From: Candidatus Woesearchaeota archaeon
Lineage (GTDB): Archaea; Nanobdellota; Nanobdellia; Woesearchaeales; GW2011-AR4
Direction: 5' to 3'
DNA: 17,323 nt
NCBI GenBank assembly: GCA_013330825.1
Contig: DUHN01000016.1
Coordinates: forward strand, 1-17,323
Positions 7,359-17,323 of the stretch are shown one piece after another; position 1 is the stretch's first letter; every line of letters starts with the position of its first letter. A program made the position numbers and the translations under genes. The notes under the pieces are model-generated. The model saw nothing but the letters and a program-made list of their open reading frames with translations. It did not search any database and was not told where the DNA came from.

Positions 7359-8429
7359 TCAAAACTCCGTCAATTTCCTCATCTGCCCGAACGTGATAAT
7401 CGAGGTGTTGCCGTCCTTGCCGCCCTCGGTCTTCTTCACGGAGATGTACCTGCCCTTCTCGAGCTTCTCGATCCTCCTCTGGAAGGTCTTGTAGGCCTGC
7501 TGGCCGCCCTTCGCGCCGTAGAGCTCGAACAGGTCGCCTATCTTCCTGCCTGAGTTGTCCCTGATGATGCCGAGGATGAACTGCTCGTCCTCCTCCAGCT
7601 CCCCGGTATCCTTGGCGTGGAACTGGCTCACCTTCGAGATGGCCTCTTCCGCGTCCTTCATGGCTATCTTCTTGGAGGAGCGCGACTCCGCGATGCCGGA
7701 AGCCTCCTTCATGAGGTGGATGCCCGTGCGGATGTCCCTGATCTCTGCCGTCTTCTTCACGACCGCGTCGAAGGCGTCCTGCTCCCAGACGCCCGGGTAG
7801 AACGCCGCTTTCATGCGATCGCCGAGGATGCCCCTGGTCTCGGCAGGCGTGTACTCCCTGAACTCTATCATCTCCGGCAGCAGCCTCGAGCGGATGCGCT
7901 CATCAAGATTGGTGAGCCAGTCCCTGTAGTTCGTGACGAGGATGATGGACTTCCGGTAGATCTCCTCGATGATGCTGTACAGGAAGTCGAAGTCCTCCAC
8001 CTTGTCAATCTCGTCGAAGACGAAGATGGCCGATTTCCTGTTGAGGAGCTGCTTGATGATCTTGAACAGCTCTTCCGTGCGCTTGTTCTGCGTGAACTTG
8101 AAGTCGAGGCAGTCGCACATCTCCAGCAGGATCTTGAAGGTGGTGTTCTTGTTCCAGCAGTTGATGTAGACCGGGATGATGTCGTCAGTCTTCTCCTCCA
8201 GCTCCCTGAGGACTGCCCTCGTGGCCGCGGTCTTCCCGATGCCCGGGCTGCCGAAGACAAAGCCGTTCCTGCCGGACTTCTCCGCGAAGAGCGGCTGCAT
8301 CAGCGCGGCGATCTTGCGTTGCTCCTGATCGCGGTAGGGCAGCATCTTGGGCAGGAACTCATACTCCAGCGCCTCCTGATTCTTGATCAGGGTCTGGTCG
8401 CTCCTCAGCATGTTGTCGAACAACCCCAT
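7359..8429 (-). CDS. Orc1/Cdc6-family replication initiator ATPase
   Basis: The 356-residue AAA+ protein has Walker A GSPGIGKT (60-67), Walker B IFVFDEID (135-142), sensor-1 VTN (165-167), an arginine-finger region DERIRSRL (177-184), a sensor-2-type helix RDIRTGIHLM (231-240) and a C-terminal winged helix (about 280-350). This is the domain order of archaeal Orc1/Cdc6, which binds origin boxes as an ATP-dependent switch and loads MCM. The length is slightly short for the family. The ATG at 8429 is preferred to the frame's first ATG at 8471 because a TATA box is centred 28 nt before it. Initiator genes often lie near an origin, but I found no convincing origin-recognition boxes in the adjoining gap. 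Some Orc1/Cdc6 paralogues have other roles. Confidence 0.9.
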   Translation of the reverse strand: MGLFDNMLRSDQTLIKNQEALEYEFLPKMLPYRDQEQRKIAALMQPLFAEKSGRNGFVFGSPGIGKTAATRAVLRELEEKTDDIIPVYINCWNKNTTFKILLEMCDCLDFKFTQNKRTEELFKIIKQLLNRKSAIFVFDEIDKVEDFDFLYSIIEEIYRKSIILVTNYRDWLTNLDERIRSRLLPEMIEFREYTPAETRGILGDRMKAAFYPGVWEQDAFDAVVKKTAEIRDIRTGIHLMKEASGIAESRSSKKIAMKDAEEAISKVSQFHAKDTGELEEDEQFILGIIRDNSGRKIGDLFELYGAKGGQQAYKTFQRRIEKLEKGRYISVKKTEGGKDGNTSIITFGQMRKLTEF

Positions 8430-8452
8430 ATGCCCGATGCTCTCCCGACGCC

Positions 8453-8464
8453 TTATATATTTTT
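8453..8464 (-). promoter_or_regulatory. TATA box of the Orc1/Cdc6 gene
   Basis: Minus-strand AAAAATATATAA is centred near 8457, about 28 nt from the ATG at 8429, indicating a leaderless mRNA. Confidence 0.75.
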
Positions 8465-8490
8465 CGCACACATACAGGCGGCCAGTCCGC

Positions 8491-10093: not shown

Positions 10094-10426
10094 ATGGAAC
10101 AAAAATCCTCATTCAGGCTCATATTCGGAGACTCACCCATAGTCAAAGTCATCGATTTTTTCCTCGACAACAGGGAGTTTGATTACAGCCTAACGGACAT
10201 CGCCAGGAATTCGGACATCGGCTGGAGCACCCTGCACGGCTTCTGGAAGGAACTGGTCGCATTGGGCATCGTCACCAAAACCCGGCGCATCGGCCGCGCA
10301 GAGCTGTACAAGCTCAACCTCAGGAGCCCGGTGGTGAAGAAGCTCATCGAACTGGACATGGACATCTCAAGGAGAATGATGCAAGAGGAAATCGAGAGGC
10401 AGAAGCTGAAGGTTGCGGTTTCTTGA
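10094..10426 (+). CDS. Winged-helix transcriptional regulator
   Basis: The 110-residue protein has a leading segment (FGDSPIVKVIDFFLDNREFD), a helix-turn-helix (SLTDIARNSDIGWSTLHGFW), a wing (VTKTRRIGRAELYKLNL) and a long C-terminal amphipathic helix (about 80-106) suited to dimerisation. This is a common archaeal regulator plan resembling MarR/ArsR-type winged helices; no ligand-binding cysteines or histidines are evident. Its target is unknown. The neighbouring divergent winged-helix gene and the convergent protease gene, only five bases away stop to stop, give no clear functional link. Confidence 0.8.
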   Translation: MEQKSSFRLIFGDSPIVKVIDFFLDNREFDYSLTDIARNSDIGWSTLHGFWKELVALGIVTKTRRIGRAELYKLNLRSPVVKKLIELDMDISRRMMQEEIERQKLKVAVS

Positions 10427-10431
10427 CAATT

Positions 10432-11385
10432 TCAAAGCAGCAGGAAAATCCCATACCCAATCAGGCACCCAACAGAAATGAACGGCATGGCAGGGTAGAA
10501 CTTGTCCTTGTCGCCCTTCATGAGGAGGATGAGCAGGGCGATGCCGGCGCAGGCGGGGATGGCCAATACTTTGAGGAACGCGATGTGCTGCGGCAATGCG
10601 AGCATTGCCTCTTTCATCACCACGCCGGCGAATATCAGCGGGAAACCCATATCGCCGCCTCCCAGTACCGCGACCCTTCCCCTGCCCGATCGCATCACTC
10701 CCTTCGCGGCCTTCGGGGAGATTTCCCCCCTCATCGCATCCTTTCCCGGTTTCCTTTTTCCCATGGAGGCCGGCATCCCCCCCACGTCGTACGGGATGAA
10801 CAGCCCGGCGAACATCCTCGCTTCCGCCTGGAATTTGGCCATGTCGACCATGTGCTTTGTCTTCCACACGGCGATGATGTCGTACACGGAGATGAAGAGG
10901 AGCAGCAGGACGGCCGCGTAGATGTTGAGCATGGGCACGAAGATGGCAGCGAGGCCGCCGTAGATGAACAGCTCGGAGATGTTGTGGACAACCATGTTCG
11001 GCCGGAACATCTTCCACAACGCCACAAGCACGGCAAGGGCCAGGGCGACCTCCTGCGGCACGAAGGCGGCGAAGGAGAAAGAGAGGGTCAGGGCAATCAC
11101 CCCGAAGAACCACAGCCTGAGTATCCACGGCTTCCCCAGCTTGATGAGCCAGAGCACGAGCAGGGTGCCGATGATGATGGCGATGGCTATGGGCACGAAT
11201 GAGGATGTCTTGTTCTGCACCGGCGGGCGCTCGAAATTATAGGGAAGGTCGTTCCACACCACCTCTCCTGCCCGCTCTGAGGATGGATGGTTGATGTACT
11301 TGTCCACTATCCACAGCCCGGTGACCTGGGACAGCAGAAAGATTCCGACCAGAATGAGGGTGACAATGGACGTATGCTTCATCAA
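10432..11385 (-). CDS. Presenilin/signal-peptide-peptidase-family intramembrane aspartyl protease
   Basis: The 317-residue protein has about nine hydrophobic helices and the three hallmarks of peptidase family A22: a YD motif (VYDIIAVW, Asp169), a GxGD motif (LGGGDMGFPL, Asp245) and a C-terminal PAL-type motif, here PAMP (298-301). The two aspartates cut substrates within the membrane. A basic cytoplasmic loop (about 205-236, KRKPGKDAMRGEISPKAAKG) separates the two catalytic helices, as in archaeal presenilin homologues. Natural substrates in archaea are mostly unknown; remnant signal peptides or single-pass membrane proteins are plausible. The ATG at 11385 is supported by a TATA box about 24 nt upstream; a second ATG follows at 11382. 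Leu in the usual PAL is Met here, a conservative change. Confidence 0.92.
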   Translation of the reverse strand: MMKHTSIVTLILVGIFLLSQVTGLWIVDKYINHPSSERAGEVVWNDLPYNFERPPVQNKTSSFVPIAIAIIIGTLLVLWLIKLGKPWILRLWFFGVIALTLSFSFAAFVPQEVALALAVLVALWKMFRPNMVVHNISELFIYGGLAAIFVPMLNIYAAVLLLLFISVYDIIAVWKTKHMVDMAKFQAEARMFAGLFIPYDVGGMPASMGKRKPGKDAMRGEISPKAAKGVMRSGRGRVAVLGGGDMGFPLIFAGVVMKEAMLALPQHIAFLKVLAIPACAGIALLILLMKGDKDKFYPAMPFISVGCLIGYGIFLLL

Positions 11386-11404: not shown

Positions 11405-11413
11405 TATTAAAAT
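11405..11413 (-). promoter_or_regulatory. TATA box of the intramembrane protease gene
   Basis: Minus-strand ATTTTAATA is centred at 11409, about 24 nt from the ATG at 11385, consistent with a leaderless start. Confidence 0.6.
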
Positions 11414-11472
11414 GTTTGGAAACTCCTTTTTTGTGGTACTTTTTCCATTGACTGTTCAGTTTCCAATTTATT

Positions 11473-11625
11473 CTTATATAATACGAAGAATTACTATTAT
11501 AATAAGAAATTCTATTTATCATACTATTTAATAAGTTAAAATACTTATATAATAAGAAATTTAATTGAAAGAATCTATTAAAATAAGAATTAATACTTAC
11601 ATAATAAGAATGATTATTTTAGAAC
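11473..11625 (+). repeat. Array of six near-dyad sites in three 51-bp units
   Basis: Six copies of a 12-13-bp site start at 11473, 11494, 11524, 11544, 11575 and 11596. The clearest is CTTATATAATAAG (11544), a 5-bp dyad CTTAT/ATAAG with a 3-base spacer, followed by AAATT. The others read CTTATATAATACG, CTATTATAATAAG, CTATTTAATAAG, CTATTAAAATAAG and CTTACATAATAAG. Start-to-start spacings alternate 21, 30, 20, 31, 21, so pairs recur every 51 bp. The block is far more A+T-rich than its surroundings. It lies between the protease promoter and the promoter of the tandem-HTH operon and holds no gene. An operator array is the favoured reading; a DNA-unwinding element is the alternative. Confidence 0.75.
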
Positions 11626-11693: not shown

Positions 11694-11704
11694 CTTTTAT
11701 ATAG
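11694..11704 (+). promoter_or_regulatory. TATA box of the tandem-HTH/surface-protein operon
   Basis: CTTTTATATAG predicts transcription from about 11725. The short leader contains GAGGAT (11735-11740), eight bases before the GTG start at 11749. The repeat array ends about 70 bp upstream of this box. Confidence 0.7.
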
Positions 11705-11748
11705 TATTTCCTATCTTGTAGGAATATTGCCTTAGAGGATTTGTTCGT

Positions 11749-12276
11749 GTGAAAGAGAACGAGGGAGCGGAACAGCCATTCCTCTCTAGATTCACCTCCC
11801 TTCCCAGGGAAGAGCAGATAGAATTGTTGGGCCAGCTGGTCGGCCACATCAAGCAGGCGTACCATCTTTCTGATGCCGATCTCATCCGGAATCGCGGCGA
11901 GGCATTGCCATTCGGCATTTTTTCCACGTCCAAAATCAGCTCGCTGGAGTCCATCGTCAAATATCTCAAGGAAGCGCGCGGCCTGAAGTTCTCCAAGATT
12001 GCGAAGCTGCTCAACCGGAACAACAAGACCATCTGGGCAACGTATGCGCAGGCCTCGCGGAAGATGCCCGAACCCTTTGGCGAGGTGCGGGACGACGTGG
12101 CGATGCCCGCTTCCCTGATTGCCGATCGTTCTCTCAGCGTGCTGGAGCACATCGTGTTCTTCGCCAAGCAGCTCGGCCACACCAACCACGAAGTGGCGTT
12201 GATGCTGCACCTTGACGACCGCACCATCTGGGCAGTATACGACCGCGCCAAGAAAAAGAAGGGGGTGAAACAATGA
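11749..12276 (+). CDS. Tandem helix-turn-helix DNA-binding protein
   Basis: The 175-residue protein has two copies of a roughly 53-residue module at 53-105 and 119-171. Both begin L/M-P, contain LExIV, and end in a recognition-helix pattern: NNKTIWATYAQASRK in the first, DDRTIWAVYDRAKKK in the second. The modules resemble sigma-70 region-4-like helix-turn-helix domains and differ by one residue in length, so an internal duplication is clear. The N-terminal 50 residues are helical and of unknown role. No ligand domain is visible. The start is GTG; an in-frame stop at 11719-11721 excludes a much longer form. The stop overlaps the ATG of the giant surface-protein gene (ATGA), so the two are co-translated. 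The protein probably controls this operon and perhaps other surface genes. Confidence 0.85.
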   Translation: MKENEGAEQPFLSRFTSLPREEQIELLGQLVGHIKQAYHLSDADLIRNRGEALPFGIFSTSKISSLESIVKYLKEARGLKFSKIAKLLNRNNKTIWATYAQASRKMPEPFGEVRDDVAMPASLIADRSLSVLEHIVFFAKQLGHTNHEVALMLHLDDRTIWAVYDRAKKKKGVKQ

Positions 12277-15200
12277 ACACACCTCCTGCTCCGGAAGAGA
12301 TGAGGGGCAGCGCCGGCTCGCTCTTTGCTTCCCTTTTGGCTATCGACACACCCCGGAGGGGGCTTCCCCCTGTCGATTTGCCGAGGAAATCGATGCACCG
12401 CTCACATAGTGGCGCTGCCCCTCGCGCAAGGCGCATCCCGCTCATCAGCATGCTCATCTTTGTCCTTCTCGGCCTAGGGCTGTATCACTTCTCCCCGCAG
12501 ATCACGGGCTTCGTCACCAAGGAATTCGCGTACTCGGAGCCGGCCAACCTTGTCGTCGCGTCGAGCGGCTCGTACCAATGGACGCCGGAGAATGCGGGAG
12601 AATTGCTGTCCCTGCGCATCGATGGCAGCCTGACCAACAACGGGACTGCCCGGGTGTACCTAGAGAGCAACGGCGCGAAGAAGCTGGTGTTTGACTCCTC
12701 GCGCCTCGGGGAAGCCTCGCAGCAGGAACAGGAGAACGCGACTCCGAGCGGGCTCGGCGCGATCACCGCCCTGGTCATCGGCACCGCAACAGAAGACGCC
12801 CCCATCGAAGAAGAGCCTGCCGTTGAAAACAGCATCCCGCAATGGGGAGGGGAGAGCAGTTTCACCATCACCGGAGAAACGACCATCCCCCTCGGCGGGC
12901 ATTTCACCGATGCTGATGGCGACACCTTGTCGTACACCAGCACCTCCCCGCTCAATGTCGGGATAATCGTGGATGGCAGCACGCTGACGGTGGTCCCGGA
13001 CGAGGACTTCACCGGCTCCCGGACGGCGTTCGTCACCGCCTCTGATGGCAAGGCCAACACGACGCAGGCCATCACGCTGATTATCGGGGCGGAACTTGCC
13101 CTTTCCACTAATGAGGATGAAGAGCCATTATCCACTGCCAACGCATCAGACTCCAATGAGACAACAACGGACAACGATGCCACTGAACCGGAACAGGAAG
13201 AGAGCCCCGTCCCACCTTCAAACGAGACTAGTGCACCATCCAATGGGACAGAGCCAACAGAGGACAACGCCACCGAAGAACCTTCCACAACGGAAAAATC
13301 CATCTCCCTTGGCCTGTCCTACGGGGACAATCCCCTGTACGACATCAACAATGACGGCATAGAGACTCTCAACGGGGTGATTGACCTTAGTGTTGCCGGG
13401 ACATCGTTTAACTGGGAGGCGGATGCGTCAAAGCTCTGCACCCGGTGGACAATAGCGAGCGAGGATGAGGGGACATCCGAGCAGGTGTGCTATGGCTCCC
13501 CTGACTGCTGCGCCTTCGTCGATCTTCCAAGCTCTGCGGACGGGTGGAACACCACGTACTATTCCACCTTTGCGCGGAACGGGGAGACCGAGAGCAACAG
13601 GGTTTCGGCGCAGGTGATATCCTATGACGTCAACCTTTCTGTCGAGAGCCTGAAGTCCGAGATTGCCTATTCCTCCTGGCAGAACCTGACGGCGAAATAT
13701 ACGACTGGCTATATGGAATTCAGCTCCGCCTGCATTGATACCTGCTCATTAACTGGCTTCAACAGGACGTCGTACAAACTCATCTTTGAGTTGGAAGGGG
13801 AAGTCGTTTTACGCCTGAACAATCTCATCTACAAGGTGAGGCAGGATGTCGCCAATGCGCCGCCAGTTGCCGTGTCCAATTTCTCCAACATGACCATCCT
13901 CAAGAACAGGAATGCGACGATCAACCTTTCATCGTACTTCTCCGATCCTGATGGGGACGCGCTGTCCTACTCCGCCTTCGATGCGGACAACCTGAGCGTG
14001 GTGTTCGACGGCGATGTAGCGACCATAGTGCCGGACAAGGGCTTTGCCGGGACGCGGTTCACGTACATCCGCGCATCTGACGGCTCCAACTCCGTTTCGT
14101 CAAACATCTTCAGGATTGCGGTGAATGATACTGACAGACTGACTCCCCGCATCGAGGTTGGGCAGCCGGTGACGTGGGTGAAGAGAGTATCCATTGCGAA
14201 CGGGACTTCAGAACTGGAGACTAACCTTCCGAAAGGAACATTGAACTTCACCGTGCTTGCTGTCACGAACGAGAGCCTGCAGGAAGTCTCTGAGAAGAGC
14301 ATCACCGTGCTAGATGAAGGCAGGGAGAAGACCAAGCAGGAGTTCGAGGAGGAGCAGGCATCCAAGGAGGCGGACAGGGCCCTGTCCATCCTTGACGAGG
14401 CGGTCAGGAAAGGCGCGGACAGGGTCGTGCTCTCTGAGGAGAATTTCACCTCATCTGAGATACCGGGGAAGAGGAGAGAGGCGGAGCAGAGGAAAGACGC
14501 TGCCGCATCATCCACGGCCGGGCAAACTTCATCCTCAATAACCGGACGGGCCATCGGGGTATCCTCACTGACTGGTTTTGCCATATTTGATGATTCATCA
14601 TCCTCGACAGAGGCAGCGCCGGAGGAGAACGCCACCATCACCATCGAGGACATCCCTGCTGCGGCCAGGGAGGTGGAAGTCGTCTATACGACGCAAGCTC
14701 CGCTGCTCATCGAGACCCCGCAGTGGAACGGCAAGGAGCTGTTCATCAGCTCCGAGGCGTCGTATACCGACGTGTTCGTCTCGACGGACATCAGGAACAC
14801 CATGCAGGACAACATCCACGTCTACTGGGTGCAGAACAACACGCGGACGGAGTTCCCTGCCGTGGACATGATAGACTCCGACCTTGACGGTCTGGTGGAC
14901 AGATTGGAGTGGTATGTTCCGCACTTATCAAACCAGACGTTCGAGATTGCCCTGACGATCCTGAACGTGCAGAGCTACCCCACTGTCGGGGGGAACTGGA
15001 CGGTGCTGTTCAATACGACCGGAACGGGCAACCTGACGATTACGGCGAGCAACGGGACGATGTTTGCAGAGCTCTTTGATGATAATGAAAACACCAGTAA
15101 TGATTTAGTCCCGATTGAAGTGAAATGCGGCGATACCATCCTCTTCAACCGCGACAACTATACGAATGCCAACAACGTCTTCTTCATCCTAGCCAATGGC

Positions 15201-17323
15201 TCCCGGCTTTCATTGTCAGAGGCCATCGGCTCGTCATTCCCCCTGAAATCGGTCTACATTGAAAACTACAATTGCGGCAACCTCACCGCTTATCATACGG
15301 TCAAGGTCATCACTCCAGGAATCCACACCCAGCAGTTCGCCTTCAACGGGGAGGTGGCGTACGCGCACAATTTTGCTTCTGTTAATGACAGCAATGTCAC
15401 CATCAGCCCTCTTTACCCAATGAAAGACCGGAATGCGACGCTTATCGTCAATGCCTCCGCGACTGGGGTGAACAGCGTCAATTTCACGGTTATCAATCCT
15501 TCCGGCAGCAAGGTACTCAACAATGTCAATGGCACCAGGACAGGGAATCTCTGGAACGTGACGTATAATCTTACCTCTTACGGCACTTGGCTGTGGAATG
15601 CGACCATCTTCTACGACAACGGGGAGATCGTCAACTCAACGACGCAGACAATACTGCTGATGGAACTGACCGCCTCATTGAACGACAGCACCTCCTCATC
15701 CGGCGCGCCGGAGAGCATACTCGTCTCCGGGCACATCAACATCTCCAACGGGACGAACGCGTCCACCCATCTCGTCAATATCTATCTCAACGAATCTCTA
15801 TTGACAGGGAACAGGAACATAACAGACATCAACTTCACCTTCGGTGTGCCCAACGGTTCAGTCATAATAGAAAACAACATCTCCCTGAACCTGAGCCTTG
15901 ACAATTACACAGTCCTGCTCCTGCATTTCAACAGCAGCGACACCAGCACCGTTTTCCACGACGCAGCAAAGCGGCATTCCCCTTCCACTAACGGGAACGC
16001 ACAGATAGACACTGCCGATTCACAACTTGGCGGTTCATCCGGCCTGTTCGATGGAACTGGCGATTACCTGAGTATCTCGAATAGCCAGGACTTCAACTTC
16101 AGCAACGAGTCATTCACCATAGACTTCTGGATGAAGCCGAACACTTTCAACGACCACGATGGTATTTTCGGGTGGAGGACGGACAACAGCAACAGATTCA
16201 TCATTATTGGATCAGGGACAACTTCCCTCGCATTCCGATCAGTCATAGGTGGATCCTTCGACACTTACATGGCCGACAATTCTGTTGGCACCGGATGGCG
16301 ACATTATGCCTGGGTGCGGAACGGCAGCCAATGGTACCTGTTCAAGAACGGCGGCCGGATAGACAACATCACCATGCCCGGGAACGCCTACTTTGCCTCC
16401 GGCCTGAGCATCACCCTCGGGCTGAATCTCGATGGCAACCCTGGCTATGACTTCGACGGCTGGATAGATGAATTTAGAGTCTCCAAAGGCATTGCACGGT
16501 GGACGGCCAACTTCACCCCACCGGTCAAGGAATATCCCCTTGTCGAAGGAAGCTACGCCTCCACGGCCTTTGACGCCAATAGCATTGTGAATTGGACGTA
16601 TATCTCGTGGAACAACCTGACGCCACAAAATACCAGCATCATACTGATGACTCGGACCTCCGGCGACAATGCAACATACTCGGAATGGACCACGCATACC
16701 ACGAGTCCCTCTGTCATAAGCCAGAATTCCACTAATCGGTACATCCAGTATCTTGCAATACTCAACACCAGCAACAACAGCCTCGCCCCAACCCTGCTGA
16801 ATGTGACACTCAACTACTCCGGCCTCTACACGGATAATTCCGGCAACTACACTTATGCCTTCACCTCTTCGGGCTCAGGCGGCGTGTATCCGGTCAAAAC
16901 CAACGCCACGTTCCTGAACATCCCGGGAGAGCGCATCGCGACGCTCACCGTGGCTTCCTCTCCAACGATAGACAGCACCTCCACATCCCCGCCGTTCCCG
17001 ATGAAGGACCATAACGTCACGCTCATCGCAACAGTTTCCGATGCCGGCGGGCTGGCGAGCGTGAACTTCACCCTGATCGCGCCCAATGGCACCAAAGCGC
17101 TCAACCTGAGCGGGGGAAGGAACAACGGGGTGGACACCACCTACAACAAATCCTACAACCTGACCGCCTATGGCACCTGGCTGTGGAACGTCTCGGTGTA
17201 TGACAATGACGGCTTCATCATCAACTCAACGACTCAGCAGATCATCCTGATGGAATTGGGCGCTGCCCTGAACGTCTCTGTGATGCAGTCGGCGGCTCCG
17301 GCCTCCATATACGGCCATATCAA
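12273..17323 (+). CDS. Giant cell-surface protein with Ig/cadherin-like and LamG-like domains (3' end outside window)
   Basis: The frame is open for 1,683 codons to the window edge. Residues 1-50 are Pro/Arg-rich and largely encoded by repeat copy D; a membrane anchor follows at about 55-72. Then: a beta domain (77-146); a cadherin-like domain (about 190-275, FTDADGDTLSY); an acidic Ser/Thr/Asn linker (280-345); a domain with six Cys (389, 406, 412, 413, 487, 491; about 350-522); a second cadherin-like domain (528-620, FSDPDGDALSY); a charged helical stretch (670-745); a domain ending WYVPHLSNQTFEI (about 780-893); a beta region to 1033; an Ig-like module (1034-1155); a LamG-like domain (about 1215-1425); and a second Ig-like module from 1560. 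N-x-S/T sequons are very frequent, suggesting glycosylation. Adhesion or host contact is plausible. GGGGGTG precedes the ATG; Met41 or Met60 are alternative starts. Confidence 0.9.
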   Translation, partial: MNTPPAPEEMRGSAGSLFASLLAIDTPRRGLPPVDLPRKSMHRSHSGAAPRARRIPLISMLIFVLLGLGLYHFSPQITGFVTKEFAYSEPANLVVASSGSYQWTPENAGELLSLRIDGSLTNNGTARVYLESNGAKKLVFDSSRLGEASQQEQENATPSGLGAITALVIGTATEDAPIEEEPAVENSIPQWGGESSFTITGETTIPLGGHFTDADGDTLSYTSTSPLNVGIIVDGSTLTVVPDEDFTGSRTAFVTASDGKANTTQAITLIIGAELALSTNEDEEPLSTANASDSNETTTDNDATEPEQEESPVPPSNETSAPSNGTEPTEDNATEEPSTTEKSISLGLSYGDNPLYDINNDGIETLNGVIDLSVAGTSFNWEADASKLCTRWTIASEDEGTSEQVCYGSPDCCAFVDLPSSADGWNTTYYSTFARNGETESNRVSAQVISYDVNLSVESLKSEIAYSSWQNLTAKYTTGYMEFSSACIDTCSLTGFNRTSYKLIFELEGEVVLRLNNLIYKVRQDVANAPPVAVSNFSNMTILKNRNATINLSSYFSDPDGDALSYSAFDADNLSVVFDGDVATIVPDKGFAGTRFTYIRASDGSNSVSSNIFRIAVNDTDRLTPRIEVGQPVTWVKRVSIANGTSELETNLPKGTLNFTVLAVTNESLQEVSEKSITVLDEGREKTKQEFEEEQASKEADRALSILDEAVRKGADRVVLSEENFTSSEIPGKRREAEQRKDAAASSTAGQTSSSITGRAIGVSSLTGFAIFDDSSSSTEAAPEENATITIEDIPAAAREVEVVYTTQAPLLIETPQWNGKELFISSEASYTDVFVSTDIRNTMQDNIHVYWVQNNTRTEFPAVDMIDSDLDGLVDRLEWYVPHLSNQTFEIALTILNVQSYPTVGGNWTVLFNTTGTGNLTITASNGTMFAELFDDNENTSNDLVPIEVKCGDTILFNRDNYTNANNVFFILANGSRLSLSEAIGSSFPLKSVYIENYNCGNLTAYHTVKVITPGIHTQQFAFNGEVAYAHNFASVNDSNVTISPLYPMKDRNATLIVNASATGVNSVNFTVINPSGSKVLNNVNGTRTGNLWNVTYNLTSYGTWLWNATIFYDNGEIVNSTTQTILLMELTASLNDSTSSSGAPESILVSGHINISNGTNASTHLVNIYLNESLLTGNRNITDINFTFGVPNGSVIIENNISLNLSLDNYTVLLLHFNSSDTSTVFHDAAKRHSPSTNGNAQIDTADSQLGGSSGLFDGTGDYLSISNSQDFNFSNESFTIDFWMKPNTFNDHDGIFGWRTDNSNRFIIIGSGTTSLAFRSVIGGSFDTYMADNSVGTGWRHYAWVRNGSQWYLFKNGGRIDNITMPGNAYFASGLSITLGLNLDGNPGYDFDGWIDEFRVSKGIARWTANFTPPVKEYPLVEGSYASTAFDANSIVNWTYISWNNLTPQNTSIILMTRTSGDNATYSEWTTHTTSPSVISQNSTNRYIQYLAILNTSNNSLAPTLLNVTLNYSGLYTDNSGNYTYAFTSSGSGGVYPVKTNATFLNIPGERIATLTVASSPTIDSTSTSPPFPMKDHNVTLIATVSDAGGLASVNFTLIAPNGTKALNLSGGRNNGVDTTYNKSYNLTAYGTWLWNVSVYDNDGFIINSTTQQIILMELGAALNVSVMQSAAPASIYGHI
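12302..12423 (+). repeat. Dispersed structured repeat, copy D, inside the surface-protein gene
   Basis: A perfect 13-bp terminal inverted repeat, GAGGGGCAGCGCC (12302-12314) and GGCGCTGCCCCTC (12411-12423), encloses an inner pair ATCGACA/TGTCGAT and a central GGGGG-CTT-CCCCC hairpin. The first 18-20 bases and the right end (GCACCGCTCACA, then GGCGCT) match copy A. It is read in frame as residues 11-50 of the surface protein (MRGSAGSLFASLLAID, later HRSHSGAA), just before the membrane segment. No target-site duplication is obvious. Confidence 0.8.
15372..15737 (+). repeat. Ig-like module, first copy (within surface protein)
   Basis: Residues about 1034-1155 contain PMKDRNATLI, SVNFTVINPSG, YNLTSYGTWLWNAT and IVNSTTQTILLMEL. 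Every one of these segments recurs in the same order in the second copy 527 residues later. Confidence 0.8.
15915..16547 (+). other. LamG-like (concanavalin-type) domain within the surface protein
   Basis: Residues about 1215-1425 have the succession typical of laminin-G-3 domains: LLLHFNSSD, then GLFDGTGDYLSIS, SFTIDFWMKP, GWRHYAWVRNGSQWYLFKNG and FDGWIDEFRVSKGIARW. Such jelly-roll domains often bind carbohydrate or protein ligands, which fits a surface adhesin. Confidence 0.85.
16950..17323 (+). repeat. Ig-like module, second copy (cut by the window edge)
   Basis: Residues from about 1560 repeat the first module: PMKDHNVTLI, SVNFTLIAPNG, YNLTAYGTWLWNVS and IINSTTQQIILMEL. The equivalent Met-Lys-Asp codons start at 15420 and 17001, 1,581 bp apart, exactly 527 codons. 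Confidence 0.8.

Follow-up and report, generated by a model that had tools for sequence, protein, structure and literature searches.

We suggest that an A+T-rich array of six related sites upstream of a tandem-helix-turn-helix (tandem-HTH) gene in a woesearchaeal genome is a cooperative operator of the protein encoded by that gene, and that this protein autoregulates its operon and represses it from an additional site at the promoter. We put the probability of this explanation at roughly 0.78. The array was analysed within a stretch of 17,323 bp, here called the window, which belongs to an 87% complete bin of 83 contigs. The sites, their helical phasing in relatives, their linkage to the regulator gene and their position relative to the promoter were established by computation, as laid out below.

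Results

The array is located in the 363-bp intergenic region between a divergent protease gene and the regulator gene (Table 1). With a GC content of 15% between 11463 and 11625, compared to 56% for the window, this is the most A+T-rich stretch there. A first-pass annotation of this DNA had described six related A+T-rich sites at 11473-11625, and these are real. A 17-bp position weight matrix (PWM) trained on the upstream DNA of 15 relatives (L007-L021, 105 sites), with the window excluded, returned the same six sites as its best plus-strand matches in the entire window. Four of them score 12.4-21.6 bits, while sites 3 and 5 are weak (6.7 and 7.9 bits). The previously given intervals of 21, 30, 20, 31 and 21 bp were reproduced when counting from the left, or CT, ends. 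The right-hand cores, AATA[AC]G, start at 11480, 11501, 11530, 11551, 11582 and 11603 and are separated by 21, 29, 21, 31 and 21 bp; the difference between the two counts arises because the left side of site 3 lacks 1 bp. A repeat search of the window gave three copies of a 49-nt unit at spacings of 50 and 52, with the other two copies 63% and 71% identical to the reference copy. Tandem Repeats Finder did not report the array, and the window contains no RNA families at gathering score and no tRNAs.

Table 1. Features of the intergenic region and its neighbouring genes
Feature	Position	Strand	Basis
Gene for a divergent intramembrane protease of the presenilin/signal-peptide-peptidase family	10432..11385	-	Pfam SPP, 7e-19, above cut-off
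Possible TATA box of the protease gene, TTTTAATA; about 60 bp from site 1	11405..11412	-	Suggested by sequence reading
Site 1, TTCTTATATAATACGAA	11471..11487	+	Relatives' PWM, 15.1 bits
Site 2, TACTATTATAATAAGAA	11492..11508	+	PWM, 12.4 bits
Site 3, ATACTATTTAATAAGTT; degenerate, left half shortened	11521..11537	+	PWM, 6.7 bits on +, 8.3 bits on -
Site 4, TACTTATATAATAAGAA; top match of the window	11542..11558	+	PWM, 21.6 bits
Site 5, ATCTATTAAAATAAGAA; weak	11573..11589	+	PWM, 7.9 bits
Site 6, TACTTACATAATAAGAA	11594..11610	+	PWM, 20.8 bits
Putative TATA box of the regulator gene, TTTTATATA	11695..11703	+	Sequence; TATA-to-site distance as in relatives
Site 7, TTCCTATCTTGTAGGAA; promoter-proximal, palindromic	11708..11724	.	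PWM, 15.8 bits on -, 2.6 bits on +; conserved geometry
Tandem-HTH regulator gene, 175 aa, GTG start	11749..12276	+	Pfam HTH_23 above cut-off, sigma-70 region 4 below; alignment A1; AF2 model, pLDDT 86.2
Gene for a giant surface protein; runs off the window	12273..17321	+	ORF; Cadherin_5/Big_9 and Laminin_G_3 matches

The sites exceed what chance would give. The 163-bp stretch at 11463-11625 contains six PWM matches of at least 6.5 bits, compared to a mean of 0.1 and a maximum of three among 3000 dinucleotide shuffles of the same stretch, and the match numbers observed at 6.5, 10 and 12 bits were reached by none of the 3000. At the 8-bit cut-off used for the relatives, the DNA upstream of the regulator gene in the window gives six matches, namely five of the array sites and a site at the promoter; at this cut-off, site 5 is missed and site 3 is found on the minus strand.

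This promoter-proximal site, site 7, had been overlooked in the first-pass annotation. It is the best minus-strand match of the window and begins 12 bp after the start of the TATA box (11696). With automatic picking, a site 12-13 bp after a TATA-like start was found in 12 of the 15 relatives L007-L021. We extended the comparison by a scan of GTDB species genomes, which gave 187 relatives, and the best 80 of the 187 loci were kept; these are named Woesearchaeota, Pacearchaeota, Nanoarchaeota and a few others. Two of them (L092 and L095) come from bins labelled Methanosarcinales and Patescibacteria and may be mis-binned DPANN contigs. In 79 of the best 80 loci (one had too little upstream DNA), with a site defined as at least 9 of 10 key bases, an operator lies 11-14 bp past the TATA start in 41 loci, 37 of them at 12-13 bp, and the geometry is absent in the remaining 38. 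Shuffles predict 0.12 loci, and other offset ranges gave 11, 3, 7, 1 and 7 of the 79. Among the distant homologues alone (L061-L115), the geometry is present in 22 of 55 loci compared to 0.02 expected. Because a protein at the promoter-proximal site would overlap the initiation region, this geometry suggests that the bound protein represses the operon. Some relatives (L007, L008, L011, L012, L015, L017 and L021) have long leaders upstream of the regulator start that contain a GTTGGGG...CCCAAC inverted repeat and sometimes a possible short upstream ORF; in the window, site 7 and the start codon are 24 nt apart, and the repeat is missing there.

Arrays are also present upstream of tandem-HTH homologues elsewhere in the lineage, where the first-pass annotation had proposed to look for them. 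Using a cut-off of at least 8 bits in the upstream regions of 20 relatives (L007-L026), we found 4-10 sites in 14 of the 15 orthologues L007-L021, which are also the PWM training set, with shuffle means of 0.03-0.22; the fifteenth locus, L016, for which the upstream DNA is limited to 364 bp, has one site. When L036-L051, which are largely the same loci, were compared with themselves without any motif, 13, 19 and 12 repeats were obtained at lags of 20, 21 and 22, respectively, compared to 0.3-0.5 expected. The 105 sites in L007-L021 are oriented like the gene without exception, and 5 of the 20 sites in L022-L026 are reversed. The relatives are non-independent samples and are at most 54% identical in the regulator, so that variation of the array within a species falls outside this comparison.

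The spacing of the sites follows the helical repeat of DNA. Across the 20 relatives, 70 of 105 adjacent gaps measure 20-23 bp; of the other 35, all are between 30 and 126 bp except one of 561 bp, which was excluded from the periodicity test. For the 34 long gaps, the best period is 10.45 bp with R=0.73, a value matched by none of 5000 random sets, and the 26 distinct gap values agree. Half of these gaps (17/34) correspond to odd numbers of turns (about 30-34, 50-52, 71-74 and 93-94 bp) and, because they are odd multiples of a turn, they cannot be accounted for by missed 21-bp steps; even-turn gaps could conceal missed weak sites, and only the odd multiples speak against this. In the distant homologues L061-L115 (51 usable loci), lags of 20-21, 31-32, 41-43, 52-53 and 62 are over-represented; this also holds for 13, 69 and 117, lags that do not fit the helical period. 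The phase is less clear in the window than in the relatives: with a turn of 10.5 bp, its six sites alone give R=0.72, and with one of 10.3 bp, R=0.92; in the former case, the first pair of sites is displaced from the remaining four by about a quarter turn.

These data revise the initial interpretation of the array. The proposal that the sites lie near one face of the DNA is borne out by the long gaps in the relatives, and so is the observation of conserved sites with poorly conserved spacers, in that positions 2-15 of the motif carry 0.41-2.88 bits each, with maxima at the C of position 2 (2.36 bits) and the G of position 14 (2.88 bits), and the positions outside mostly less than 0.4 bits. The array had also been described as three 51-bp units, each with a pair of sites. 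Such units are literally present in the window, but the alternating spacing recurs in none of the 20 relatives, in which the basic step is 21 bp. Because the annotation had itself named homologous loci without alternating spacing as evidence against its interpretation, we reject the 51-bp pair as a conserved module and functional unit. The idea of helical phasing stands, because the 34 longer gaps favour multiples of 10.45 bp, as does the link to the tandem-HTH gene, and the proposed platform gains a promoter-proximal site.

The motif is tightly linked to homologues of the regulator gene, which are present in 27 of 36 genomes of the family, with one copy in the genome studied here. In the 36 genomes, every one of the 20 matches to ACTTAYATAATARGA precedes a regulator homologue on the same strand, at a distance of no more than about 460 bp. 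This strict motif is present in 15 of the 27 genomes with a homologue and in none of the nine without (Fisher p = 0.0046); it is missing in the other 12 homologue-bearing genomes. For the shorter CTTATATAATARG, 42 of 45 matches in the same genomes lie upstream of a homologue, and a reversed-pattern control gave five matches in all; two of the three exceptions fall inside ORFs, and the third lies where no ORF reaches 100 aa. The palindromic TACTTACATAATAAGTA was sought in 287 genomes of the order and matched 10 times, in nine genomes, compared to zero for the control; every match is within 160 bp upstream of a homologue on the same strand, and the four families involved do not include that of the window. 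The homologue beside one of these matches (G090) is partial with an internal stop. The original claim that the array is tied to the tandem-HTH gene is therefore upheld with all three motifs.

A wider regulon in the same genome was considered and rejected: allowing up to three mismatches gave 19 matches, six of them in the array, compared to 30 for the reversed control, and hence no excess. Two further matches to the motif in this genome lie far from the array (L119 and L120). Judged by the strict motif, we read the regulator as having essentially one predicted target per genome, its own operon.

The regulator is an uncharacterised tandem-HTH protein of Woesearchaeota with two HTH repeats and an N-terminal helical part. 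A Pfam scan to E 0.1 returned only HTH_23, Sigma70_r4_2, HTH_11 and HTH_Tnp_ISL3, and thus not the combination of an Lrp/AsnC HTH and a RAM domain. No NCBIfam family matched the regulator near its cut-off; the best match was 16.8 bits with a cut-off of 136, so that the protein does not reach the score of a sigma-70 family factor. A sequence search of solved structures with alignment A1 gave a best E of 0.036 and no useful relative, and Foldseek with the regulator model gave no match at E<=0.001. A comparison with VIA-align was confined to Foldseek's top 1000 chains and barely covered residues 1-119, so that we do not put the fold forward as new. Homologues on G033:C65 and G010:C83 are open frames of 245-321 aa with several matching stretches and probably have more than two HTH repeats.

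The start of the giant surface protein gene overlaps the regulator stop (ATGA), and in 19 of the 20 loci L036-L055 the regulator gene is followed by sequence encoding a homologous N-terminal surface domain. The divergently encoded protease also matches NCBIfam IMP_arch_presen (8e-23), with 81.3 bits below the 125-bit cut-off.

Discussion

Based on these data, we suggest the following model. Each pseudo-palindrome of about 17 bp (CTTAT-3 bp-ATARG) would be bound by one regulator unit, with one half-site probably taken by each of its two HTH repeats. Bound units would be spaced by close to whole turns, sharing one face of the helix, and neighbouring units would cooperate. High-affinity sites would be occupied, and at a sufficient concentration the promoter site would be filled and the operon shut down. 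With the initiation region blocked from the site 12-13 bp past the TATA start, the regulator would probably repress itself together with the giant surface protein. The sites farther from the promoter would feed, stabilise or modulate the repressed state and set the concentration threshold; they may also act on the promoter of the divergent protease gene, which is about 60 bp away on the left. In this model, binding, cooperativity and the sign of regulation are inferred; the sites are assigned to this regulator by the co-location of gene and motif, and repression is suggested by the promoter geometry.

Archaeal Lrp-type regulators offer the closest functional parallel. As described in a review (PMC2995911), Ss-LrpB and Ptr2 have several sites in their own control regions, with centres two or three helical turns apart on one face, and autoregulate; Ss-LrpB activates its own promoter but turns to repressing it as its concentration rises, and activator sites are noted just upstream of the BRE. 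The locus in the window similarly combines repeated sites of one type in the regulator gene's control region with, as seen in the relatives, the integral-turn spacing of phased operator arrays. There are also differences. The protein joins two HTH repeats to an N-terminal helical part and has no Lrp domain in Pfam, and the arrays reach up to ten sites. Moreover, the promoter-proximal site is downstream of the TATA box, unlike the activator sites in that account. The system may thus work like archaeal Lrp autoregulation, but by domain content the protein is not an Lrp. It also differs from HTH proteins of the sigma-70 region 4 and NarL-FixJ types (RcsB, sigma fragments) in having two repeats per chain and in being neither a sigma factor nor a response regulator.

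Alternatively, the protein that binds the array could be another regulator, one acting on the divergent protease gene, the operon or both, with the tandem-HTH gene merely a target. A small gene nearby (10094-10426) has a weak HTH_IclR match (18.8 bits with a cut-off of 22), and binding by the protein encoded next to the array is itself inferred. We nevertheless find this unlikely: all 10 matches to the palindromic site, which come from four further families of the order, immediately precede homologues, and the array is still next to the regulator gene in L036, with the protease gene displaced, and in L039, with no match to it in the 2.3 kb examined. That the region contains no protein sites and is intrinsically curved promoter DNA or a decaying tandem duplication would fit its low GC content and the partial identity of the 49-nt units, and is the least probable of the explanations considered, with only a slight chance of being correct. 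The information in the motif peaks at two positions (C2 and G14) and falls in the spacers, shuffles of the array give at most three matches, and in the relatives spacer lengths vary while the phase is kept.

Plasmid iterons are direct repeats of about 21-22 bp beside the gene for a DNA-binding protein, and iterons and partition sites have repeats of about two turns. The array shares these traits, and the window contains a cdc6/orc1-like gene at 7359-8471, 3 kb from the array, raising the idea of an iteron-like replication origin or centromere. Unlike plasmid iterons, the array is in a conserved chromosomal neighbourhood, is coupled to a promoter by its TATA-linked site, which suits transcription control, and gave no sign of an origin in the cdc6 and skew tests. 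Among 17 relatives searched, a close cdc6 orthologue is on the contig of the regulator in two, about 94 kb (G003) and 121 kb (G005) away, which are the only firm distances; it is on another contig in 12, so that the distance is unreadable, and no close match was found in three. A conserved neighbourhood with an initiator gene, expected of an iteron origin, was not seen in the two relatives with firm distances, and GC skew was followed in two contigs: in the 311-kb contig G013:C9, GC skew has its minimum near 90 kb and no turn at the array at 120.3 kb, and in 200 kb of G003:C3, a weak test because the array at 190.8 kb is near the end, it turns near 110 and 160 kb. We therefore downgraded an origin to a weak rival and consider it very unlikely.

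If the array is an autoregulatory operator as we suggest, the regulator, with its well-defined 17-bp site at a constant place in the promoter and, judged by the strict motif, about one target per genome, provides a testable entry to gene control in uncultured DPANN archaea, and the arrays are a natural series for studying the evolution of operator helical phasing. The open-access papers searched yielded nothing relevant on regulators, promoters or presenilin in Woesearchaeota or Pacearchaeota, apart from an unrelated vesicle review, and nothing on archaeal membrane-bound transcription factors with a helix-turn-helix and a surface protein; for transcription regulators in DPANN archaea they gave work on histones, Lrs14 and Calvin-cycle genomes, and for phased operators in archaeal autoregulation the Lrp review. 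The link to a giant surface protein, together with the membrane fusions in relatives described below, suggests that the system controls the surface that these presumed symbionts show to their partners.

In several relatives, the HTH repeats are part of a larger protein. Among the best 80 loci, they form the C-terminus of an ORF of 506-2203 aa in 10 (L068, L074, L079, L085, L093, L095, L096, L097, L103 and L115), some of which may start beyond the available DNA. By a largely by-eye reading, the order in these ORFs is ectodomain, short hydrophobic stretch, basic cluster and either two or four HTH repeats. With a hydropathy threshold, the C-terminal segment was detected in two of the 10 (L093 and L115) and an N-terminal one in five. 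The surface domain of the type found in the window matches the N-terminal part of two fused ORFs (L074 and L093), and no protease match was found in the examined flanks of the 10 genes. Where the downstream ORF was readable (73 of the best 80 loci), the regulator end is overlapped, or followed within 10 bp, in 30 loci by an ORF that measures at least 300 aa and begins with hydrophobic sequence.

The predicted architecture of the 10 fused ORFs, which recalls Notch, suggests that these proteins are membrane-tethered regulators. A more far-reaching idea, which we regard as doubtful, is that the regulator family is the DNA-binding arm of a DPANN surface-sensing system built in two forms. In the lineage of the window, this would be a soluble regulator with a translationally coupled giant surface protein and a flanking intramembrane protease of the presenilin family. 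The form in Pacearchaeota and other Nanoarchaeota would be a single membrane protein with an N-terminal anchor, a large ectodomain, a hydrophobic stretch with a basic stop, and HTH repeats inside the cell. We speculate that the fused forms are cleaved and signal, and that intramembrane proteolysis could free the regulator to reach the phased array. In three loci, a second, diverged tandem-HTH gene is present downstream of the surface protein gene (L038:9344-9868, L044:8836-9384 and L048:8720-9250), and the regulator-surface protein module may have been duplicated in tandem there.
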